Origin: Desulfobacula sp. | Lineage (GTDB): Bacteria > Desulfobacterota > Desulfobacteria > Desulfobacterales > Desulfobacteraceae | Reading direction: 5' to 3' | Length of the DNA: 10,394 bases | Assembly: GCA_029940235.1 (NCBI GenBank) | Contig: JAOZRI010000062.1 | Location: 1 to 10,394 of the forward strand | Shown: positions 1-10,394 of the stretch, in pieces | Numbering within the stretch: the first letter of the stretch is position 1 | Layout: every line of letters starts with the position of its first letter | Notes under the pieces: generated by a model | The model's input: only the letters and a program-made list of their open reading frames with translations | Databases searched by the model: none | What the model was told of the DNA's origin: nothing | Program-made: the position numbers and the translations under genes

Positions 1-431
1 TTACTTTAAAAAAAGTTCCTGACCAGCCTGGTGTTTCTGCAAAAGTATTCACTCCCCTTGCAAAAGCAGAAATAAGTGTAGATATGATTATCCAGAATAC
101 CCGATCTGACGGTGAAACAGATTTAACCTTTACCGTGACTAAAGATGATTTTGAAAAAGCCAGGGAAATTTCACACAAAGTTGCCAAAGAGATGGATGCA
201 ATCGAAATTGTTACAGCAGAAGAGATTGCCAAAGTCTCTGTTATCGGGCTTGGAATGAAATCTCACTCCGGAGTTGCAGCCACAATGTTCCAGGCGCTTG
301 CAGATGAGAATATCAATATCAGACTTATCAGCACTTCAGAAATCAGGATTTCCTGTGTTATTCAGGCAAAATATGCAGAACTTGCAGTAAGAACGCTTCA
401 TTCTGCATTTAACCTTGACCAGGAAAAATAA
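1..431 (+). CDS. lysC: Aspartokinase, C-terminal ACT domains (5' partial)
   Basis: The open frame enters from the left edge (first whole codon at position 3) and ends with TAA at 429-431, so only about the last 142 residues are present. The visible part is a tandem ACT regulatory region. It contains the KVSVIGLGMKSHSGVA stretch, then the ISTSEIRIS signature and the ELAVRTLHSAFNLD ending that are typical of aspartate kinase. The enzyme phosphorylates L-aspartate as the first step towards lysine, threonine and methionine. The ACT pair binds the feedback inhibitor (lysine and/or threonine in this family), but which one applies cannot be read from this part. The catalytic domain lies outside the window. 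The Met at 84 is internal and not the start, because upstream in-frame residues already match the first ACT domain. The gene appears unrelated to the transport/signalling genes that follow. Confidence 0.93.
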   Translation, partial: TLKKVPDQPGVSAKVFTPLAKAEISVDMIIQNTRSDGETDLTFTVTKDDFEKAREISHKVAKEMDAIEIVTAEEIAKVSVIGLGMKSHSGVAATMFQALADENINIRLISTSEIRISCVIQAKYAELAVRTLHSAFNLDQEK

Positions 432-632
432 ATTCTAATACTGCTTGTCATATTTCAGCATCTATATCTTTTTCTAATGATAAAAAAAAGTATTCTTCTG
501 ATCTGATAATTCTGAAACTAATATTTCCATGGGGCCCTGGATTTAATTTTTAAATCAATCGCGAACTTGCAAAGGTTACAAGCCTGTGGTAAGTGTTAAT
601 CCTTAGTTCAACGGCAAATCCAGGAGGTATTT
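432..632 (+). promoter_or_regulatory. Leader region with foldable stem upstream of the binding-protein/ABC operon
   Basis: This 201-bp non-coding gap separates lysC from the first operon gene. The distal part can fold: GAACT (563-567) pairs with AGTTC (605-609), and AAGG (572-575) with CCTT (601-604) across a 4-nt bulge. Inside, TTAC (576-579) pairs with GTAA (589-592). A strong Shine-Dalgarno AGGAGG sits at 622-627, five bases before the ATG at 633. CCTG in the apical loop (583-586) is complementary to CAGG (621-624), which overlaps the Shine-Dalgarno, so a loop-to-RBS pseudoknot is possible. No known riboswitch class was recognised, and no convincing sigma-70 or sigma-54 promoter or lysC terminator was found. 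The pairings are seen in the sequence; a regulatory role is inference. Confidence 0.35.
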
Positions 633-1583
633 ATGAAAGATAAATCATGCATTTGTATTGGTCATCTAAAAATTATTGACCACCTGATCCTGGGCATTGT
701 CAATCTAAAACTTAAAACTAACGAACTGAGTCTCAGCCACTCAAATCTTGAAACTAAATCCATGAATTCCTGGGGTCAAGTTATTGATGGTTTGAGAGAA
801 CAAAGTATCAATGGGGCTTTTATCCCTGTTCCCATTGCAATGGATCTTTTTGCATCTGGTCTTGATATCAGGCTTTTGATGTTTGCCCATAGATCAGGTT
901 CTGTAATTGTAAAAAACAGAAATCTTAACATAAAAGAAATAACCGATTTCACAGGTAAAACTGTTCTTGTACCTTCTAAGCTTTCCATTCAAAATATGCT
1001 CCTGCACAGGCTATTATCTTCTGCCGGTCTAAAACTTGGCTCCCACAATGATACCAGTGCGGATGTGACACAAGAGATTATCAACCCTTTTTTAATGAAT
1101 GAAATACTTAAGAATGACCAGGATAACGATATTGCAGGATTTGCTGTTGCAGAGCCCTTTGGCACAAAAGCAGTTCTTGATGGAATTGCAAGCCTGGTAT
1201 GCACATCCCACAGCTTATGGAAAAATCACCCCTGCTGTGCCTTTATATTACACACCTCTTTTATTCAAGAAAACCCCGCAGCAGTACAAGAAATTGTCAC
1301 CTTGTTTGCTCAAACCGGACAAAGTATTGAAAACTCAGACAAAAAAAAATATATTTATCTTGCACAGGAATTTCTTGATCAGAAAAAAGAGGTGATCGAA
1401 GATATTTTTCAAAAAACTGACATCAGTTTCACTCCTTCTTTACTAGTACCTGATATTGAAGCCTTAAATACTATTCAAAACTATATGGCAGACTCCATGG
1501 GAGTCTTGAAAAGCAAAATAGATATAGACCTTCTTGTGGACTCTTCATATATTCTGGACATCATAACTGAAAGCGGGAAGTAA
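633..1583 (+). CDS. Cytoplasmic NrtA/CmpA-like ligand-binding protein (no signal peptide)
   Basis: This 316-residue protein belongs to the periplasmic-binding-protein-like fold of the nitrate/bicarbonate/sulfonate group (NrtA, CmpA, SsuA/NMT1-like). It has no signal peptide: the mature fold begins at once (residues 8-25, GHLKIIDHLILG), aligning with the internal start of the same domain in the receiver fusion at 4404-5774. Landmarks are PIAMDLFA (67-74), AEPF (173-176) and WKNHPCC (196-202). The C-terminal IQNYMADSMG (281-290) and DLLVDSSYI parallel the fusion protein. The N terminus also has two cysteines (C6, C8). ATG at 633 is supported by AGGAGG at 622-627. It is the first gene of the ABC operon, three bases before the ATPase. 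By analogy with NasS, a cytoplasmic NrtA relative that senses nitrate, it may be an intracellular ligand sensor; that role and the ligand are inferred. Confidence 0.8.
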   Translation: MKDKSCICIGHLKIIDHLILGIVNLKLKTNELSLSHSNLETKSMNSWGQVIDGLREQSINGAFIPVPIAMDLFASGLDIRLLMFAHRSGSVIVKNRNLNIKEITDFTGKTVLVPSKLSIQNMLLHRLLSSAGLKLGSHNDTSADVTQEIINPFLMNEILKNDQDNDIAGFAVAEPFGTKAVLDGIASLVCTSHSLWKNHPCCAFILHTSFIQENPAAVQEIVTLFAQTGQSIENSDKKKYIYLAQEFLDQKKEVIEDIFQKTDISFTPSLLVPDIEALNTIQNYMADSMGVLKSKIDIDLLVDSSYILDIITESGK

Positions 1584-1586
1584 ATT

Positions 1587-2354
1587 GTGAAAATAGAGCT
1601 TAAAAATATAACAAAAATCCATAGAAAATCCAGAGATTCTGAATTTATCGTACTAAAGAATATCTCATTTTCCATTAAAAAGGGTGATTTTATTATTATT
1701 CTTGGTGAATCAGGCTGTGGCAAATCCACACTTTTAAATATGCTGGCAGGTCTTGAAGAACCAAGTTCCGGAGAAATTTATGTTGATGGAGAAAAAATTA
1801 AAGGAATACACCCTTCACGATCCATGCTTTTCCAACAGCCCACACTGATTCCATGGTTAAATGTAGAAGAGAATGTCGCCTATGGCTGTGAACTGCGAGG
1901 TGATACTAAAGAACTTGATTACAGGGTTCACCAGTTTTTAGAAATCATGGGTATTGAAGAGTTCAGCCATGCAAAACCAAATCAACTATCGCTTGGCATG
2001 GCCCAGAGAGCATGCCTTGCCAGAGCTCTGGTTGGACTGCCCGACATCCTTTTATTGGATGAACCCTTTGCATCCCTTGATACATTTACCCAGGCCCATA
2101 TCCAGGAAGAGATGGTTAATTTATGGCTTGCTGAACAATTTACCGCTGTCTTTGTAACCCATGATATTGATGAAGCCATCCGCATGGGCAATAAAATCAT
2201 CCTGCTGGCAGGAGAACCTGCTACTATTCAAGATATTTTTGAAATTAATGAAGACTATCCAAGGGATAGAAATAATCCAGGATTCAAAGCAATACGTAAA
2301 GAAATCATGGAAAAATTTAAAAATTCATATCTTGCAAAAAGGAGTATGTTTTAA
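1587..2354 (+). CDS. ABC transporter ATP-binding protein, nitrate/sulfonate/taurine type
   Basis: This 255-residue ATPase has the full set of ABC motifs: Walker A GESGCGKST (40-48), Q-loop FQQP (82-85), Walker B ILLLDEP (154-160), D-loop SLD (163-165) and the switch histidine in THD (H192). It fits the NrtD/SsuB/TauB group and would power import through the permease at 3517-4347. The signature is LSLGMAQR (134-141) rather than LSGGx, so its third position is Leu instead of Gly. Translation starts with GTG at 1587, three bases after the previous stop, with only a weak GGGAAG (1575-1580) upstream. That points to translational coupling. Its stop (2352-2354) directly abuts the next start. There is no C-terminal regulatory domain of the NrtC type. 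Function as an importer ATPase is secure; the substrate is not. Confidence 0.92.
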   Translation: MKIELKNITKIHRKSRDSEFIVLKNISFSIKKGDFIIILGESGCGKSTLLNMLAGLEEPSSGEIYVDGEKIKGIHPSRSMLFQQPTLIPWLNVEENVAYGCELRGDTKELDYRVHQFLEIMGIEEFSHAKPNQLSLGMAQRACLARALVGLPDILLLDEPFASLDTFTQAHIQEEMVNLWLAEQFTAVFVTHDIDEAIRMGNKIILLAGEPATIQDIFEINEDYPRDRNNPGFKAIRKEIMEKFKNSYLAKRSMF

Positions 2355-3530
2355 TTGAAAGATTTTGTCAAACCAAACTCAAGGCGGCATTTTCTTAAAA
2401 CTACAGGTGCGCTGTGCTCCAGCATGTTTTTTCCCAGCACAGGCAATATTTTTGCAAAAACACAAACCCTTAGGCTTGGTTATCTTCCCATTACCGATGC
2501 CACACCTTTGCTGGTAGCCCATGGACTTGGATATTTTTCAGATGAAGGCCTTAAGGTTGACAGACCTGTCATGGTCAGGTCCTGGAAAGTTTTAACTGAA
2601 TCCTTCCTGACAGGCAAATTTGATTTAACACACATGCTCTTTCCCATTCCAATCTGGATGAGATTTAAACAAAACATGCCTGTAAAGGTGCTTGCCTGGG
2701 ATCATACCAACGGTAGTGCTGTTACAGTGAGAAGTGACTCTGATATCTACAGTTTCAAAGACCTGGGTGGAAAAAAACTTGCTGTGCCTTCATGGTATTC
2801 CATGCATAATCTTATCTTGCAGCTTGGATTGCGTTCCCAGGGACTTAAGACTGTAATAAAACCACAATCTGCAAGACTGGCCAAGGATGAAGTTAATCTT
2901 TTTATCCTGGCTCCGCCAGATATGCCCACTGCTCTTTTGGGCAGAAAAATTGACGGATTTATTGTGGCAGAGCCTTTTAATGCTTTGGCGCAAATTAAAT
3001 TAAATGCCAGAATCATGCGGTTTACCGGTGATATATGGAAGAACCACCCCTGCTGTGTTATTGTTGCCAATGAAAACTTTATAAAAAAGAGTAGTTTACT
3101 GGTACAAAAAGCCATGAATGCAATTGTCCGGGCCCAAGCCTGGTGCATCAAAAATCCAAGGGAGACTGCATATCTGTTGAGCCGTGACGGAGAAGGCTAC
3201 CTGCCCATGCCTAAAAATGTCTTATATCAAGTATTTACCAATCCTGAAAAAAATCAGCTTCTGCATCCTCAATGGAATGTGTCAAGAATAGGATTTCAAC
3301 CCTTTCCATATCCTTCTGCTACACAGTTTATCATTGATCAGATGAAGCAGACTCTTGTGGAAGGAAACAACGACTTTCTTAAAAGCCTTGATACCATGAA
3401 TGCAACAGACGATCTTGTAGAAAACAAATTTGTATTAAAGGCATTAAATGAAATGGGCGGCATGAAAAAGTTCTGTAACTGCGATATTGAACAACCATAT
3501 ACAAGGGAAGAGGTCATTGAAGTCAATTAA
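2355..3530 (+). CDS. Tat-exported NrtA/CmpA-like substrate-binding protein of the ABC importer
   Basis: This 391-residue protein opens with a twin-arginine signal, SRRHFLK at residues 9-15, followed by a weakly hydrophobic stretch and an IFA/K cleavage candidate near residue 34. It is therefore probably exported folded to the periplasm. C21 does not sit in a good lipobox. The mature part is an NrtA/CmpA/SsuA-like binding protein: LRLGYLPITDATPLLVA (39-55), GLGYF, AEPF (205-208) and WKNHPCC (228-234). It differs from the two cytoplasmic paralogues in the pocket segment, having PIPIWMRF where they have PIAMDLFA. The start is TTG at 2355, immediately after the ATPase stop, with GGAG at 2341-2344. 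It would deliver ligand to the permease encoded next. Ligand unknown: nitrate, bicarbonate, a sulfonate or a thiamine-precursor-like compound are all possible within the family. Confidence 0.88.
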   Translation: MKDFVKPNSRRHFLKTTGALCSSMFFPSTGNIFAKTQTLRLGYLPITDATPLLVAHGLGYFSDEGLKVDRPVMVRSWKVLTESFLTGKFDLTHMLFPIPIWMRFKQNMPVKVLAWDHTNGSAVTVRSDSDIYSFKDLGGKKLAVPSWYSMHNLILQLGLRSQGLKTVIKPQSARLAKDEVNLFILAPPDMPTALLGRKIDGFIVAEPFNALAQIKLNARIMRFTGDIWKNHPCCVIVANENFIKKSSLLVQKAMNAIVRAQAWCIKNPRETAYLLSRDGEGYLPMPKNVLYQVFTNPEKNQLLHPQWNVSRIGFQPFPYPSATQFIIDQMKQTLVEGNNDFLKSLDTMNATDDLVENKFVLKALNEMGGMKKFCNCDIEQPYTREEVIEVN

Positions 3531-4347
3531 TAAATTTATTTATAAAGACCCTGGTCAGGTTGGACTGACTGCTATCTTTGGCAATCGAAATTCTGCCTGG
3601 AAATATGAACTTATCGGGCTTGCAATTTTCGCATGTCTCTGGATGATAAGTGCAGGTTTTTTCTTTACAAGACCGGAATTTATACAATTTCAAGGATTTT
3701 TACCAGGCCCCACATTTAAAGCCCTGCTATCCATGTGCCAGGAAAGCAGATTCTGGATATCTGTATTTGCAAGTTTGCAGAGAATTATCATTGGAATATC
3801 CATTGCAGCAATTCTTGGTATTCCCATGGGAATTATGGTGGGTTTTTATCCAAAACTTCGAAGTTTTTCATACTCTCCCATACAATTTGTAAGGATGATC
3901 AGTCCTCTCTCCTGGATGCCCATTGCTCTGCTTTTATTTGCAAGTTTTGAGTCTGCTGTCTATTTTTTGATTGTAATGGCAACAATTTGTCCTATAATAC
4001 TCAATACAACCATTGGAGTTTTAAATATTAACCCTCAATGGATAAAAATGGCATTAAATCAGGGAGCAAGCAGTGTGCAGCTCATAAAGACCATTGTAAT
4101 CCCGGCATCACTGCCCTATATGCTCACCAGCCTTAGACTGGCTCTCGGAGTAGCCTGGATTGTACTTGTTCCTGCAGAATTTCTCGGTGTATCAAGCGGA
4201 CTTGGATATTTAATCAATGATGCAAGAGATACAATGGAATATGATAAATTAATGGCAATAATAATCGCAATAGGTGTTCTTGGATTTATTCTTGACAGAA
4301 TTATCCAAAAACTTCAATATACATTCAGCTGGTCCTGGAATGAATAA
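3517..4347 (+). CDS. ABC transporter inner-membrane permease, NrtB/SsuC/TauC type
   Basis: This protein of about 276 residues has roughly six hydrophobic segments. The first lies at about residues 31-50. The binding-protein-dependent-transport EAA-type cytoplasmic loop is visible around residues 179-213 (ALNQGASSVQLIKT, then PASLPYMLTSLRLALG), followed by a conserved AEFLG (220-224). This is the usual layout of SsuC/TauC/NrtB permeases. Start choice: TTG at 3517 is preferred because AGGGAAGAGG (3504-3513) lies just upstream and gives a 14-bp overlap with the preceding gene. An upstream in-frame TTG at 3487 would add ten residues but has no visible ribosome site. It forms the transmembrane channel for the adjacent ATPase and exported binding protein. 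A 56-bp AT-rich gap follows before the receiver fusion gene. Confidence 0.9.
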   Translation: MKSINKFIYKDPGQVGLTAIFGNRNSAWKYELIGLAIFACLWMISAGFFFTRPEFIQFQGFLPGPTFKALLSMCQESRFWISVFASLQRIIIGISIAAILGIPMGIMVGFYPKLRSFSYSPIQFVRMISPLSWMPIALLLFASFESAVYFLIVMATICPIILNTTIGVLNINPQWIKMALNQGASSVQLIKTIVIPASLPYMLTSLRLALGVAWIVLVPAEFLGVSSGLGYLINDARDTMEYDKLMAIIIAIGVLGFILDRIIQKLQYTFSWSWNE

Positions 4348-4403
4348 TTTAATTATTAAAAATATATTAATTACATGTTTTATAAACAACAAGGAGTGTT
4401 TCA

Positions 4404-5774
4404 ATGGCAGTAGACCCCAATATTAAAATCATTGTGGCAGATGATTCAGGAACCATGCGCATGATGTTTAAACAGATTTTAAACAAGGCTGGATTTGAGA
4501 ATCTTGTTATGGCTGTCAATGGTGCTGATGGGCTTGAAAAAGTAAAGGAGGAAAAGCCAGATCTTGTTGTAAGTGACTGGAATATGCCAATAATGGACGG
4601 GCTTGAATTTTTACAGGAGCTAAGGAAAATTGATGAATTTAAAGATCTGCCTTTTATAATGGCAACTGCCCAGGCTGACAAGGGCCAGCAGATCACCATC
4701 ATGAAAGCAGGTGCCAACGGCCATGTCCCTAAACCCTTTGATGAAGAACAGATAAAAAAAGGCATAGAAAAAGCATTCTCAGGTGAGACAGAAGCTGACA
4801 AACCTGTTAAAAAGCAAAGATCTATCATGGGTGGCAAGGTTGAACTAAATGTTGCCCATATCCAGATTACAGATCACCTTGCTCTTGGTGCCTTGAAACA
4901 CAGAATTGACAAGGGAGATATTGAGCCGGAACATTTTGATCTGACCACAAGTCTTAAAGGGGGATGGAACCCAATCCAGGAAGGTCTTGAAAACGGAGAG
5001 ATTGACTGCGCATTTGTACTTGCCCCCATTGCCATGGACCTTTTTGCCTATGACTCTCCCATAAAACTTGTTCTGTTTGCCCATAAAAATGGAAGTACAT
5101 TTATAAGATCCAGGCATTATGACCATAGATTTGATTCTCTGCAAAGCTTTTATAAATATAAAGTTGTGGATATCCCCCATAAAATGTCTGTTCACCATAT
5201 GCTTGCCCATAAATTTTTAAAAGAGCTTGGGCTGAAGCCAGGTGTTCCAGGGAAAAAAGCAATCAATGTCCGGTTTGAGGTTGTTCCTCCCATTAAAATG
5301 CCAGGCATCATGAAAGAGAATGAAGATGTTGCAGGCTTCATGGTTGCAGAGCCTGTTGCCACAAAAGCCATTGTTGGTGAAATCGGCAGTCTGGAATTCT
5401 ACTCGGCAGGCCGTTGGGACAATCATCCCTGTTGTGTTGTTGCCATGCAGGATGACTTTATTCAAAAACATCCCGAAGCTGCACAGGAATTTGTTTCTCT
5501 GCTCATGGATACAGGCGAATACATAGAAGATGATAAAATCAGAGCTGCTGATATTGCTGTAAACTTTCTTGATCCTGAAGGAAAGCTTGGGCTTAATCCT
5601 GAAGTTTTAAAAAATGTATTTTCCCAACCACAGGCTATCAGGTGGGATGGTCTCTATCCAATTGCAGAAGACCTTGATAAAATCCAGCAATATATGCATG
5701 ATGCCATGGGAATTGGCAAAATAATAGATCTTGATAAATTTATTGAGTCCAGTTTTGCTGACCAGGCATATTAA
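4404..5774 (+). CDS. Response-regulator receiver fused to an NrtA/CmpA-like ligand-binding domain
   Basis: This 456-residue protein has two domains. Residues about 6-125 form a CheY-like receiver with the acidic pair D13/D14, phospho-acceptor D58 (SDWNMP), T88 and K110 (PKPF), so it looks phosphorylatable. A short charged linker (about 127-144) joins it to an NrtA/CmpA-like binding domain (about 145-456). This carries AHIQITDHLALG (151-162), PIAMDLFA (208-215), AEP (315-317) and WDNHPCC (338-344). There is no DNA-binding, GGDEF or kinase output domain and no signal peptide, so it is cytoplasmic. The binding domain resembles the free cytoplasmic protein at 633-1583 more than the exported one. 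ATG at 4404 has AAGGAG at 4391-4396. The AT-rich 4348-4390 gap could hold its own promoter, but no clear boxes are seen. Probable role: coupling intracellular ligand level to phosphorelay state (inference). Confidence 0.9.
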   Translation: MAVDPNIKIIVADDSGTMRMMFKQILNKAGFENLVMAVNGADGLEKVKEEKPDLVVSDWNMPIMDGLEFLQELRKIDEFKDLPFIMATAQADKGQQITIMKAGANGHVPKPFDEEQIKKGIEKAFSGETEADKPVKKQRSIMGGKVELNVAHIQITDHLALGALKHRIDKGDIEPEHFDLTTSLKGGWNPIQEGLENGEIDCAFVLAPIAMDLFAYDSPIKLVLFAHKNGSTFIRSRHYDHRFDSLQSFYKYKVVDIPHKMSVHHMLAHKFLKELGLKPGVPGKKAINVRFEVVPPIKMPGIMKENEDVAGFMVAEPVATKAIVGEIGSLEFYSAGRWDNHPCCVVAMQDDFIQKHPEAAQEFVSLLMDTGEYIEDDKIRAADIAVNFLDPEGKLGLNPEVLKNVFSQPQAIRWDGLYPIAEDLDKIQQYMHDAMGIGKIIDLDKFIESSFADQAY

Positions 5775-5794
5775 TCAAATTAAGAATTAAAAAC

Positions 5795-5840
5795 GAATAA
5801 TGAATAATTGAGGATTTTCTCCATTAATTATTCACTATTC
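5795..5840. repeat. Imperfect palindrome / long AT-rich hairpin between genes
   Basis: In the 92-bp gap before the acidic-protein gene, GAATA (5795-5799) pairs with TATTC (5836-5840). TGAATAATT (5801-5809) pairs with AATTATTCA (5826-5834), and GGA (5812-5814) with TCC (5820-5822). An alternative register pairs AATAATGAATA (5796-5806) perfectly with TATTCATTATT (5836-5846). There is no T-run following it as in an intrinsic terminator. It may be an mRNA hairpin that partly separates expression of the two flanking genes, or a copy of a small dispersed palindromic repeat; one window cannot decide between these. Confidence 0.5.
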
Positions 5841-5866
5841 ATTATTAGTTATTAGGGGGTTTTTAT

Positions 5867-6469
5867 ATGAAAATCACTGATCCGGATGTCATAAAAAATG
5901 GTGAGAAAGATCTCATAGATGCTGTAAAAGATGACCTTGACCTTGATACAATCAAAGAGATTATGCAAAACAAAATGAATGCTAAAACTATTTCATCCAA
6001 AGGTGGTGAAATTGTTGTTCATAATAATGAAATTGCCTTTAGATTGGATTTCAGCATTGAAATAAGCGGCAGTCTCATGTTTGACAGACAGGGCAATTAT
6101 ATCCCTGAATCCGATAATCAGGATGACCTGTCCCAAAATTTTGATTCTGACGAGCAGCTTGAGATAGACCTGCCTGATTATGATCTTGATGATGAATCAG
6201 ATCAAAAGGAGATAGAGCAAACCGGAGATATACTCGAAAATGAAGACGACAAGGCAAGTGAACCCACTGAAGATGATGCACTCCCCATTGATGATCTTGA
6301 TTCTTTAACAGACGAACTGAACAAGGAGTTGGATAGTGACATAGATCCAGAGATAAATCTTGAACCAGGGCTGGAATCAGAAATCAAAGATGATGATACT
6401 GATAACAATGACATGAATGATATTTTAAAAGAGAGTCGTGATTTCTGGGATTCAAAAAAAGATGAGTGA
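5867..6469 (+). CDS. Unrecognised acidic protein with a small N-terminal domain and disordered tail
   Basis: I do not recognise this 200-residue protein. Residues about 1-75 look folded: a helix-like charged start (DLIDAVKDDLDLDTIKEIM) and then a probable beta segment (EIVVHNNEIAFRLDFSIEISGSLMFD). From about residue 80 to the end it is dominated by Asp and Glu with many Ser, Asn and Pro, with no hydrophobic core. It is presumably disordered, ending in a short amphipathic piece, DILKESRDFWDS. There is no signal peptide or membrane segment. ATG at 5867 follows a strong AGGGGG (5854-5859). Its last eight bases overlap the HPt gene, suggesting translational coupling and a shared job. It may be an adaptor or binding partner in the phosphorelay, but nothing in the sequence proves that. 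Confidence 0.8.
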   Translation: MKITDPDVIKNGEKDLIDAVKDDLDLDTIKEIMQNKMNAKTISSKGGEIVVHNNEIAFRLDFSIEISGSLMFDRQGNYIPESDNQDDLSQNFDSDEQLEIDLPDYDLDDESDQKEIEQTGDILENEDDKASEPTEDDALPIDDLDSLTDELNKELDSDIDPEINLEPGLESEIKDDDTDNNDMNDILKESRDFWDSKKDE

Positions 6470-6800
6470 CCCTGCCATCAACATCAAAGAGTTAACAGAG
6501 ATCATGGATGATGACAGGGAACTGATCCATGATTGCTTTTCAGATTTTATTGACCAGTGGCCACAAATTTATGACGAAATTAAACAGGCTGCCCTTGCAC
6601 AGAATGCTCAAATTTTAGATGACTCAGCACATAAGCTTAAAGGAATATTAAAATACCTTGCAGCTCAATCTGCTGCAGATGCTGCATTTGTCCTTGAATC
6701 GGCAGGCAAGGGAAACGACCTTGAAAATATTGACCACAAGCTTGAAACTTTAGAAAAGGAATGTCAAAAGGTGACAGAATATATAAAAGCATTTGAATAA
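6462..6800 (+). CDS. Histidine phosphotransfer (HPt) domain protein
   Basis: This stand-alone protein of about 112 residues has the HPt helical-bundle pattern. The phospho-acceptor motif AHKLKG (56-61) has His57 as the likely phosphorylated residue, preceded by the early helix FSDFIDQWPQIYDEIKQA (26-43) and followed by AAQSAADAAFVLE. It would shuttle phosphate between a hybrid kinase and a receiver such as that encoded at 4404-5774; no kinase is in this window. The start chosen is ATG at 6462 (MSDPAIN), overlapping the previous gene by eight bases. An in-frame GTG at 6438 would add eight residues but its GAGAG is only two bases away. Spacing from GGGA (6447-6450) to 6462 is long, so coupling to the upstream gene is likely. 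The family is clear; the partner is inferred. Confidence 0.85.
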   Translation: MSDPAINIKELTEIMDDDRELIHDCFSDFIDQWPQIYDEIKQAALAQNAQILDDSAHKLKGILKYLAAQSAADAAFVLESAGKGNDLENIDHKLETLEKECQKVTEYIKAFE

Positions 6801-7266
6801 TACATTCAACATCCCTATAACCACAGGTCTAACGCAAATCAAAAACCTGTAAGCAAAAGGCAAATCACCTTCCACTGGAGTGGTATAATAACTTTTAAAA
6901 GCCATAATTATTTCGGAAAAACATGACCTTATTCCGCCTTTTATATTAGAAGCTTGAATAGGAGTTGAGAATTCATATTCTATATTACTACAAGCTAAGT
7001 GGAATATGGCAGGTTGTGAGTTTGATGGGTATATATATTATAGACTTGAATATTGAAGCATGGCGTATGATAGCGATTCAGTCGTATATAGTTTAATCTG
7101 ATCATTTAATTTAAAAACAATCAATCTACTAAAAGGGATCTTTCTCGAAACTACTTACTAATATTAACCCGGCAATTAAATACTCTAAATAATTAGGTGT
7201 TTAACAATCCTATAGCGCCTGTTTGTAATGGTTTGGGTGATAATCGTACGACCAAACTTCATCTAT
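6801..7266. other. Non-coding stretch between convergent genes
   Basis: No credible gene was found on either strand in these 466 bases; the longest ATG frame noticed here encodes only 16 residues (7006-7056). Weak potential hairpins are ACAGGT/ACCTGT (6823-6828 / 6845-6850), CCAC/GTGG (6872-6875 / 6880-6883) and CGGAA/TTCCG (6914-6918 / 6932-6936). The last is followed by a short CCTTTTA and is the nearest thing to a terminator for the HPt gene. The right end holds the left arm of the 14-bp inverted repeat described separately. Another internal pair is GTTTGG/CCAAAC at about 7231-7256. The region may be decayed DNA or transcription-end territory. Confidence 0.5.
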
Positions 7267-7277
7267 TTAATTGCCGG
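7169..7277. repeat. 14-bp perfect inverted repeat enclosing 81 bp
   Basis: CCGGCAATTAAATA at 7169-7182 is the exact reverse complement of TATTTAATTGCCGG at 7264-7277. The whole is 109 bp with no coding capacity inside, apart from the stop of the minus-strand gene in the right arm. The size and end structure fit a miniature inverted-repeat element or a large stem. No clear target duplication is seen (flanks AAC and AGT). TTTAATTG recurs in direct orientation at 7266-7273 and 7286-7293. The right arm supplies the last codons (Ser-Gly-Asn) and stop of the cyclase gene. Confidence 0.55.
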
Positions 7278-10200
7278 AGTAATAGTTTAATTGGTTAAGT
7301 TCTTTGTTTGCCTGTTTTAAGAATTTGAAAGCACCTATTTTTTCAAATATATGGATGGCTTTTTGTAAATGTTTTTTTGCAAGGTCATGTCGATTTTTTA
7401 TTTTATGAATAATGCCCAAATCGAGATGAGCCTGTGCTTTGACTCCATCCGCCCCAATTTTTTTGGCTAACTCAATGGATTCTGAATAATAACGAAGCGC
7501 TTTTTTTTCAGCAAAGGGAACATTCTTAATTATGAAACCGATATTTTTTATCAAGGTTACAAAACTTAAGGGTTCATTCCCTTGGATGATTTTAAGAAAA
7601 ATTTTCCCCTTGATATATTTAATCATAGGTAAGATGCCATTTTTTTGCTGTTTTATAAACACTTGTTCGTATTCTTTTATAATATTAAATCCTTTGGTTA
7701 TTCTGCCGCTGTCAATGAGTATCACCCCATTAAGAAAAGAGGCGATATCACCAAACGTTTCGACCCTATTATTTTTGTGAAATCGCAATGCCTTGTTCAT
7801 GACATCTTTCGCTTTTTCCATTTCCTTATTAAGAATAAGTGATTGTAAAAGTATAGTACGAAAACCAAATCTGTAAACCGGATCTGAAGAAATTTTAATC
7901 GCCTCTTCTAGCAATGAAACACCTTTCTCAAAATCACCGGAATTCGTATATCCAATACCTTTCGTACAGTGGCCCATACCAAGACTTCTAATTTGGGAGT
8001 ATTCATCTCCATATCGGATAAGCTTTTCCCCAACTTCTATGCAATTTTGGGCTTCTCCCATGCAATAAGAAATAAAACCAATACCACCAAGTGATTTAAA
8101 ATAGATATAATGATCCTCTTTATAATTTTCCCCTATTTCATTTGCTTTTTGGCCGTATTCGATCCCTTTTTTAAAAAACCCCATATCTGCAAATAGCCAG
8201 GAAAGCCAGGCACATGCATAACCAATTATTTTTTTATTGTTAATTTCTGTCCCAATTAAAACGGCTTTTTCTAAATTTTTTTTTGCTTTTATATATTTGC
8301 TCCTGAACCAAAAAATATTACCCTGCCAGGCATAAAACATTCCAATTATCTCTTTATCATTGATTTGATCAGCTAAGTGCCCCTGTGATGAGAACAGATC
8401 CCCAAGATTTTTGTAATCGCCACTGTAATAATAAACCAATGCCCACCTATTGAGCAGATCAATCATAGATTCATTGATTTTTATAGATTTGTCAGTGATA
8501 CTGTTAATTAAATCAAAGGCTTTTTGATAGTATTGATGGGCTTCATCAACAGAATATTTTTTAATGCTCTTGTCACCAGATTTTTTTAAATAATCAACGG
8601 CTTTAAGTTTGGATTTACCTTTCATAAAATGATGGGCCAAGGTCTCATAGAATTCAGGTAACCTGTCTCCAAAAAAATTTTCAATCACTATTCCTATTTT
8701 TTCATGAATGATTTGTCGCTCTGTTTTTAACAGACCTTTGTAAACAACTTCCTGGGTTAAAGCATGTTTGAATATATATTCGAGATCCAGTTTATTTTCC
8801 CTGGATTTTATCAGATCAAACCCCTCAAGGGTTTGAAGACAGTGATTGATATCTTTTTTGGTATCAGTGATCCGGTGAATAATTTCATAATAAAAGGATC
8901 GACCGACGACAGATGCTTCTTGCAGAATCCGTTTAGATTCCGATTCAAGGCGATCAACCCTTGCAGAGATCACACCATGAATAGAAGAAGAGATATCAGA
9001 CTCTGTAATCTCCCTATCCAAAATCCACTCATTTTCATTCTTTAAAAGAACTTTTGATTCAATCAAAAAGTTGATCATTTCTTCCAAATAGAAAGGATTC
9101 CCCTGGGTTTTTTTCTCAACAAAGGATTTTAACTTGGGAGGAATACTTTTTGATTTTAATAAAGATTTCACCATTACCTGTGAATCGGATGCCGACAAGT
9201 CCTCAATCTTGATTTCTTGGTACTTTGTTTTTATCTGATCAATTTGGAAGCTGGAAAAAATTTCAATCGCCGGTCTTGCCACATATAAAAACAGGATGGG
9301 CAGCTTTGCTTTGGACTGAATATGATCCACCAGCTCTAAAAAAGAAGGATCTGCCCAGTGCAGGTCTTCTATGCAGATAATAATTGCCTGATGTTTAGAA
9401 AGAGCTGATAATATTTCGCACACGGCATCAAATAGTTTTGATTTCCAAAATTCAGGACTGACACTTTCCACTTCAGGGTAGCTCAATGAATATAAAGTGC
9501 CGATATAAGGAATAATTGCTTGGGGATCCTTAACAAGGGTACGGATAGTTTTGTCAATTTTTGCTTTTATAGTTTTTGGGGAATCTTCTTCTTTCATCCC
9601 AAAAATATCATCGAATAAAGTCAATAGTGGGAAATACGGTATGCTCTGGGTATATGGGTATGTATAACCTTCAAACCACTGAATATTTGAAATTGCTTGA
9701 AACTCTTCAATCAGTCGACTTTTACCTGTACCAGCAAAACCATACAGGCAGAGCACTGAACCAGTTCCATTTTTAAGTTCTGTAACCGCTTGATTGAATA
9801 TTGATAATTCTTTATTCCTTCCAATTAATTTTGCTCTTACTCCATGTAGCCGTTTTATTCGCTTCGGTTTTTCAACAGCATCAATAACCTTAAAATTAGA
9901 AACAGAGTCTTTTTTGCCTTTAACAGTAACAGGATCTCTTAATTCAAATGAAAAATGATTTTGAGCAATTTTATATGTATCTTGCCCTACAATAATTTCT
10001 CCAGAGTTGGCAAGGCTGGTCAGACGTTTTGCAAGATTGATTGTATCTCCTGTAAGACCATGTCTGCCTTTGCCTATATATTCATCTCCAGTTATTACAA
10101 GACCTGTATTAATGCCTGTGTGCATGCTCAGTTTGGTTTTATATTTCTTTTCAAAATCAAGGCTTAATTTGTCTACAAGTTTATGAATTTCAATTGCTGT

Positions 10201-10394
10201 ATGAATTGCTCTTATCGTATCATCCTCATGGGCTTTTGGGACACCAAAAAGAATCATAATTTCATCACCAAAAAATCTTTCTACTGTGCCCTCATACTTT
10301 TTAACAACAGCACCTGCTTTTTTAAAAATGTCACCCATAAGGTTTTTAACTTCTTCAGGATCCATCTTTTCTGTCATTGCGGTATAGCCTGAAA
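7267..10394 (-). CDS. Class III adenylate/guanylate cyclase with AAA-type ATPase and TPR domains (5' partial)
   Basis: About 1040 residues are visible; the frame runs off the right edge. Met at 10377 is internal: codons just upstream read SGYTA, matching the D-x-S-G-[FY]-T start of class III cyclase domains, so the real N terminus lies outside. Numbering from that Met, the cyclase domain spans about 1-168. It has the second metal-site region FFGDEIMILFG (D38) and the transition-state pair N114/R118 in GDTINLAKR. The first metal Asp would be just beyond the edge. An NTPase domain follows, with Walker A GFAGTGKS (213-220) and Walker B IIICIED then LHWADPS (332-345). From about 590 to the end are helical TPR-like repeats. 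Such proteins join cyclic-nucleotide synthesis to an STAND/AAA-like switch, but the signal is unknown. It is convergent with the HPt operon and probably independent of it. Confidence 0.9.
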   Translation of the reverse strand, partial: SGYTAMTEKMDPEEVKNLMGDIFKKAGAVVKKYEGTVERFFGDEIMILFGVPKAHEDDTIRAIHTAIEIHKLVDKLSLDFEKKYKTKLSMHTGINTGLVITGDEYIGKGRHGLTGDTINLAKRLTSLANSGEIIVGQDTYKIAQNHFSFELRDPVTVKGKKDSVSNFKVIDAVEKPKRIKRLHGVRAKLIGRNKELSIFNQAVTELKNGTGSVLCLYGFAGTGKSRLIEEFQAISNIQWFEGYTYPYTQSIPYFPLLTLFDDIFGMKEEDSPKTIKAKIDKTIRTLVKDPQAIIPYIGTLYSLSYPEVESVSPEFWKSKLFDAVCEILSALSKHQAIIICIEDLHWADPSFLELVDHIQSKAKLPILFLYVARPAIEIFSSFQIDQIKTKYQEIKIEDLSASDSQVMVKSLLKSKSIPPKLKSFVEKKTQGNPFYLEEMINFLIESKVLLKNENEWILDREITESDISSSIHGVISARVDRLESESKRILQEASVVGRSFYYEIIHRITDTKKDINHCLQTLEGFDLIKSRENKLDLEYIFKHALTQEVVYKGLLKTERQIIHEKIGIVIENFFGDRLPEFYETLAHHFMKGKSKLKAVDYLKKSGDKSIKKYSVDEAHQYYQKAFDLINSITDKSIKINESMIDLLNRWALVYYYSGDYKNLGDLFSSQGHLADQINDKEIIGMFYAWQGNIFWFRSKYIKAKKNLEKAVLIGTEINNKKIIGYACAWLSWLFADMGFFKKGIEYGQKANEIGENYKEDHYIYFKSLGGIGFISYCMGEAQNCIEVGEKLIRYGDEYSQIRSLGMGHCTKGIGYTNSGDFEKGVSLLEEAIKISSDPVYRFGFRTILLQSLILNKEMEKAKDVMNKALRFHKNNRVETFGDIASFLNGVILIDSGRITKGFNIIKEYEQVFIKQQKNGILPMIKYIKGKIFLKIIQGNEPLSFVTLIKNIGFIIKNVPFAEKKALRYYSESIELAKKIGADGVKAQAHLDLGIIHKIKNRHDLAKKHLQKAIHIFEKIGAFKFLKQANKELNQLNYYSGN

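Follow-up and report, generated by a model that had tools for sequence, protein, structure and literature searches.

What might a bacterium gain by joining a signalling receiver domain, in a single chain, to a domain of the kind with which ATP-binding cassette (ABC) importers bind their solutes? The question is raised by a 10,394-nucleotide stretch of DNA from Desulfobacula sp. (GenBank assembly GCA_029940235.1, contig JAOZRI010000062.1, positions 1 to 10,394 of the forward strand; hereafter the window), in which one gene encodes a CheY-type receiver followed by an NMT1_2 domain, the predicted ligand-binding domain or binder. Every component of this fusion is of a known kind, and it is the combination that is new. 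We propose, with a probability of about one half, that the fusion is a cytosolic ligand sensor of a chemosensory network, in which the binder reads a solute of the imported type, the receiver is phosphorylated, and the output adjusts signalling. The proposal draws on the observed architecture, fold, and operon, on kinship with fusions that bear a CheW domain, on some cases in chemotaxis (che) gene clusters, on linkage to a Cys-less CheD homologue, and on conserved residues partly shared with the importer's binding protein; the identity of the ligand, the phosphodonor, the contact with the CheD homologue, and the output are the steps that we infer.

A receiver and a binding domain in one chain

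The fusion gene and its parts are placed as follows.

4404..5774, + strand: receiver–NMT1_2 fusion protein, 456 aa (Pfam, sequence searches, structure model and structural matches)
4428..4766, + strand: CheY-type receiver domain, residues 9–121, with the codon of the phospho-acceptor Asp58 at 4575–4577
4827..5771, + strand: NMT1_2 (NrtA/SsuA-type) predicted ligand-binding domain, residues 142–456, with the HPCC motif (341–344) at 5424–5435
4391..4396, + strand: ribosome-binding site, by eye

A preliminary description, made from the window alone, had recognized a receiver and a full binding domain in one protein and had proposed a full-length structure prediction. The resulting model is confident (mean predicted local distance difference test score, pLDDT, 90.4; predicted template modelling score, pTM, 0.87), and solved structures match both halves, that of the binder being an NrtA-type fold. 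A decayed binding domain, which that description had named as a possible refutation, finds no support in these matches or in the conservation described below. The receiver and its acceptor residues are present, as in CheV, while the CheW domain that CheV carries in the same chain is absent from the window protein (Pfam). Nor is the fusion a single-domain CheY, given its length of 456 aa and its second domain; the NCBIfam CheY model scores it at 97.3 bits, below the cut-off of 189. The receiver forms the N-terminus and no signal sequence was seen by eye in the reading frame, and the protein is presumably cytoplasmic.

The fusion is not an assembly error that joined two genes, because 60 of 86 host-family genomes carry it (the genome of the window is counted, as is G009, in which the fusion is split over two contigs), single-contig genomes among them. 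Altogether 63 of the 86 match the fusion, three of these holding stand-alone relatives only. The domain-architecture search suggested at the outset likewise bore out the pairing, with both receiver and NMT1_2 present in 116 of the 120 listed matches, out of 1,712. Among 188 loci, 80 were kept; 43 of them (L005–L047) match over nearly the whole length and the other 37 mainly through the receiver. Genes in these loci were called with a simple longest-reading-frame script, and some fusions lying under antisense open reading frames (ORFs) were missed (L015, L152, and initially L159). When a CheW-bearing relative was searched against 394 genomes of the phylum, 23 matched at E ≤ 1e-60, the window's own genome and one other host-family genome included.

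Long names describing the receiver–NMT1_2 architecture already exist in source annotations. In agreement with the preliminary description, which knew of no characterized regulator of this kind, our literature searches, among the papers listed, pointed to no study or experimental test of it, and Fig. S10 of PMC10653840, a set of 30 unstudied CheW architectures, may list it. In one protein of 1068 aa (P0121) both the receiver and the NMT1_2 domain occur twice, and a 1071-aa ORF of L046 may resemble it.

Kinship with chemosensory proteins

A chemotaxis link of the fusion family is not visible from a single window, and emerges from its relatives. When the binder of a distant relative (L034, 47% identical) was used as query, 107 of the 120 listed matches, out of 1,331, comprised receiver, NMT1_2, and CheW; two had NMT1_2 and CheW only and 11 lacked CheW, which is thus present in 109. 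Pfam confirms all three domains in L034 and L040. By their sequences, many relatives are CheV-like receiver–binder–CheW proteins, which is a new observation.

Some of these genes also lie among chemosensory genes, as judged from blastp against ORFs whose names were assigned by eye, some of them checked with Pfam. The L028 fusion sits inside a che cluster with CheW, CheA, CheD, CheX, CheB, and the Cys-less CheD homologue; a further CheA follows on the other strand together with CheR and CheY. Pfam identifies the CheDs and CheX of this cluster, and its remaining genes were recognized by eye. The L130 cluster resembles it by blastp labels. L159 presents a single run of CheW, two methyl-accepting chemotaxis proteins (MCPs), the receiver–NMT1_2–CheW gene, another MCP, CheR, CheA, and CheD. 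A complete CheA is nearby in L039 and L128 (Pfam), and, by eye, MCP genes adjoin the fusion in L038 and L043 and flagellar hook-type genes are near it in L034.

The Cys-less CheD homologue, here called CheD*, provides a second connection. It matches the CheD family (PF03975) at 77.7, 66.2, and 67.7 bits in its L012, L122, and L028 copies, respectively. At the site aligned to the cysteine of Thermotoga CheD (2f9z), which we take to be catalytic, the 14 operon-side copies all have Ser and the L028 copy has Gly, while the canonical CheD proteins of L028, L122, and L130 retain Cys; on this alignment CheD* lacks the catalytic cysteine of CheD. Its gene, divergently placed, directly precedes the importer–fusion unit in 12 of the 29 loci of the window type, a sample that counts the window and includes some loci that end too early for their neighbours to be judged. 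The che cluster of the window genome (L122 730–1218 and 4859–5338, contig C28) contains a canonical CheD and a second CheD by Pfam, the latter with Gly at the cysteine place by eye.

Across the 86 host-family genomes, gene content follows the fusion, in tests uncorrected for shared ancestry or draft gaps. CheB is found at E ≤ 1e-3 in 59 of the 60 fusion genomes versus 18 of the 26 others (p 2.1e-4), and at a bar of E ≤ 1e-60, picked after the list was seen, in 59 of 60 versus 12 of 26 (p 2.7e-8). FliG exceeds its cut-off in 55 of 60 versus 8 of 26 (p 1.9e-8), and within the genus of the window in 13 of 13 versus 4 of 13. CheD* at 50% identity or more occurs in 41 of 60 versus 7 of 26 (p 7e-4); counting only each genome's best CheD* place, 29 of the 41 have it at most 9 kb from a fusion on one contig, and the other 12 have it on a different contig.

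The descent of the family was traced in a binder-domain tree of 75 of the 131 collected rows (L136_3, L047_10, and L046_8 were left out and the rest thinned by hand), with CheW labels taken from a text pattern, or from reading the sequence for L037; L038, cut by a contig end, could not be scored for CheW. The 47 fusions form one clade (100/100), apart from the exported binding proteins (100/100) and the stand-alone proteins, which supports, at the level of sequence, a single origin of the fusion. Window-type proteins form one clade within it (15 rows, 100/99), nested among CheW-bearing rows on a weak base, and the CheW-less L036 (by Pfam) and L137 (by length) are likewise placed among CheW-bearing rows. 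The window-type clade includes L033, 52% identical, from a short contig of a metagenome-assembled genome labelled Spirochaetales, where transfer or mis-binning is possible.

The importer operon, conserved residues, and the ligand

The fusion gene belongs to an operon with an ABC importer, whose other genes are listed here.

633..1583, + strand: stand-alone NMT1_2 protein (the lone binder), 316 aa (Pfam, tree; no signal peptide by eye)
1587..2354, + strand: ABC importer ATPase (best models of the NtrCD/SaoA type, below their cut-offs)
2355..3530, + strand: exported substrate-binding protein (SBP), NMT1_2 (twin-arginine-type N-terminus by eye; conservation)
3487..4347, + strand: ABC importer permease (PF00528; true start probably downstream of 3487)
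5867..6469, + strand: acidic protein of unknown function, 200 aa (conservation in the N-terminal part and in a C-terminal helix, with an acidic middle between them)
6462..6800, + strand: histidine phosphotransfer (Hpt) protein (PF01627, 33.8 bits)

Co-occurrence with the ABC genes, which the preliminary description had offered as a check, proved to be conserved. The permease gene is directly upstream of the fusion in 26 of the 29 window-type loci. Four or more upstream genes are present in 23 of these loci, and 21 of the 23 show the order lone NMT1_2, ATPase, SBP, permease in full. This arrangement speaks for the main rival explanation, in which the fusion would bind a solute inside the cell and gate the importer encoded next to it; a kinase would exert control through the receiver, and chemotaxis would play no part. 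The nearest solved relatives of the binder include the regulatory domains of NrtC and CmpC, and that of CmpC is described in PMC11349869 as a presumed solute-binding domain that appears to hinder the transporter in E. coli. However, in L028 and L130 close copies occupy che clusters that lack the importer, the copy in L031 has kinases and CheA-like genes around it by eye, and relatives with CheW, of which there are many, were seen away from the importer. We regard importer gating as rather unlikely.

The alignments indicate that the binder of the fusion is under strong constraint, with a core common to the importer SBP. Among its 315 positions, 63 are identical in at least 46 of 47 fusions, and 29 of these carry the same residue in 25 or more of the 26 exported SBPs, including D157, W188, P208, H227, G230, S231, P258, S262, and H264, and further P296, M299, P317, W338, H341, P342, C343, and C344. 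Going by the fold, the conserved residues would line the predicted site. Stand-alone proteins that neighbour a MerR-like gene retain 27 of the 29 shared positions (in 90% of rows), and the lone binder of the operon retains only nine by the same measure; in its 23 sequences H264 is replaced by Gln in 21, C343 is kept in 14, and C344 in 13. The lone protein thus appears relaxed at positions that the fusions hold.

This contrast bears on the idea that the receiver merely drains phosphoryl groups from phosphorylated CheA or Hpt while the binder is a structural relic. According to PMC12691637, CheV is regarded as a sink for phosphate, and relaxation of an NMT1_2 protein does occur in this very operon. 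Yet the retention of 63 positions in nearly all fusions, set beside a relaxed lone binder that keeps 9 of the 29 shared with the SBP, speaks against a relic, and a pure sink seems improbable.

As to what a sensor of this kind would read, the core common to the fusion binder and the SBP makes a related ligand plausible. Nitrate and bicarbonate are unlikely. We take position 269 of NrtA to be its specificity residue, Lys for nitrate or Glu for bicarbonate; in the lone binder this lysine lines up with the last residue of the HPCC motif, its second Cys, which corresponds to C344 of the fusion, and because the lysine is replaced by Cys, neither anion is predicted. The earlier assignment of the binder as NrtA/CmpA-like stands for the fold and finds no support for the ligand. 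The Staphylococcus aureus SBP 3un6, whose title names bound zinc, also has a Cys–Cys pair at the HPCC place. The NCBIfam labels SsuA and SaoA were rejected as ligand clues, since they fall below their cut-offs and name no ligand.

The same residue weighs on a further alternative, in which the fusion would condense NasS–NasT-like regulation into one chain, the ligand freeing or hiding the receiver and gene expression being changed through another protein. NasS, predicted to sense nitrate in the cytosol with an NrtA-type domain, pairs with a receiver protein (PMC3795266), and the fusion binder matches the NrtA fold. Against this, a Pfam scan of the fusion and of seven other window proteins finds neither an ANTAR nor a DNA-binding domain, and the nitrate lysine of NrtA is not retained; we give the idea a slim chance.

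Two further groups of NMT1_2 proteins were seen. One, of 312 aa and without a signal peptide, occurs in many host-family genomes (L120 1666–2604 and 380–1615; L123, L134, L028) and adjoins a gene whose start resembles MerR (in L028 the MerR_1 model scores just below its cut-off, and L120 has no Pfam match). The other, in L124, L138, and L139, has metallo-beta-lactamase-like ORFs nearby by eye, and in L138 also a hybrid-cluster-protein-like ORF.

A proposed chemosensory sensor weighed, and the rest of the window

As a cytosolic sensor of a chemosensory network, the fusion could work as follows. Its binder, an internal relative of the adjacent importer's SBP, would read the imported solute or a similar one inside the cell. 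The CheY/CheV-type receiver would accept phosphoryl groups from CheA or by way of the Hpt protein, and phosphorylation and ligand occupancy would jointly set the state of the fusion; mutual gating of the two, as suggested at the outset, is plausible. In CheW-bearing relatives the C-terminal CheW may dock this state onto the CheA–chemoreceptor array, as in CheV. Window-type proteins, without CheW, probably act through a partner, for which CheD*, lying near the gene in 29 of 60 fusion genomes, is the best candidate. Chemosensory signalling, and perhaps uptake, would thereby be adjusted to the internal nutrient level.

Several observations weigh against this reading. The window shows no che gene, and its fusion has no CheW. 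Most of the CheW-bearing fusions sampled lie outside che clusters, with one of 20 loci inside (L159) and an MCP-like ORF in L153 and L157. In the window genome CheD* sits on another contig, C28, in a che cluster, and the upstream gene in the window is something other than CheD*; CheD* was not found in 19 of 60 fusion genomes, several of them drafts, and is present in 7 of 26 without the fusion. To these is added the lack of correction in the co-occurrence tests. The approximately unbiased test does not reject the alternative to the nested placement of the window type (p 0.367, binder tree; p 0.375, receiver plus binder), and proof that the window type lost CheW was thus not obtained. Finally, at 34 of the 63 binder positions that are invariant among fusions the exported SBPs differ or vary; for example, they have Tyr at H152, Ala at H158, Trp at D212, mostly Ser at H259, and Gln at H269; therefore the ligand of the fusion need not equal that of the SBP. 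Overall, the first interpretation of the fusion is partly supported.

The closest known systems place the proposed sensor between familiar categories. CheV resembles it through the receiver, the CheW domain of many relatives, and the chemosensory genes nearby in some genomes. In CheV the receiver is not first, whereas the fusion relatives begin with the receiver and place a ligand-binding domain between it and CheW, and the window copy lacks CheW altogether. Of two receptors tested with CheV in a phospho-mimetic form, one was bound (PMC12691637). NasS–NasT also couples a cytosolic NrtA-type domain to a CheY-type receiver, in two chains rather than one, with an ANTAR output and a different residue at the presumed specificity site. 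The C-terminal regulatory domain of NrtC/CmpC, an NrtA-type domain in excerpts of PMC11349869 on CmpC, is joined to the transporter ATPase, unlike the fusion binder, which is joined to a receiver. NasS and these domains are precedents for binding-protein folds as cytosolic sensors, which the preliminary description passed over. Treponema denticola CheWS, a CheW–CheR-like sensor of S-adenosylmethionine, is likewise cytosolic and anchored to the chemotaxis array through CheW (excerpts of PMC10653840), with another sensor fold and no receiver. The S. aureus SBP 3un6 and NrtA/CmpA/SsuA are exported-type ABC binding proteins without a receiver, unlike the fusion.

A wider and more tentative version of the proposal is that a broad bacterial family has placed a relative of the importer binder into a CheV-like adaptor, such that an intracellular nutrient tunes chemotaxis, and that in the window lineage a catalytically dead CheD replaces direct CheW docking as a ligand- and phosphorylation-dependent coupler to receptors. 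Were this the case, nutrient uptake, internal nutrient level, and chemosensory signalling would be directly linked in one soluble, purifiable protein, CheV-type adaptors would gain a defined small-molecule input, and a use would be found for CheD homologues without the catalytic cysteine. A route would also open to the ligand of an uncharacterized ABC importer in relatives of sulfate-reducing bacteria.

Downstream of the fusion, the acidic-protein gene follows directly in 27 of the 29 window-type loci, and an Hpt gene comes after it in 13. The likely Hpt start is the ATG at 6462, which overlaps the upstream stop; a longer ORF begins at 6438. The acidic protein has no Pfam or NCBIfam match at 0.001, and its model (pLDDT 60) is too weak for a structure search. 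Short peptides of CheZ and FliM bind receivers, and the C-terminal helix of the acidic protein, in which I186, L187, and W194 are invariant in 23 rows, could be a candidate docking peptide for the receiver.

Between the two genes lies an AT-rich, inverted-repeat-like spacer (5775–5866), a 24-base piece of which is no frequent element, matching one further place in the genome, with two mismatches. At the 5′ end, 3–431 (+) is by eye the C-terminal part of an aspartate kinase-like gene, the CheD* neighbour of 12 other loci being missing here. At the opposite end, 7267–10377 (−), whose product clusters with no ORF of the other loci, encodes on the opposite strand a nucleotidyl cyclase, AAA_16, and TPR protein that is open at the contig end.
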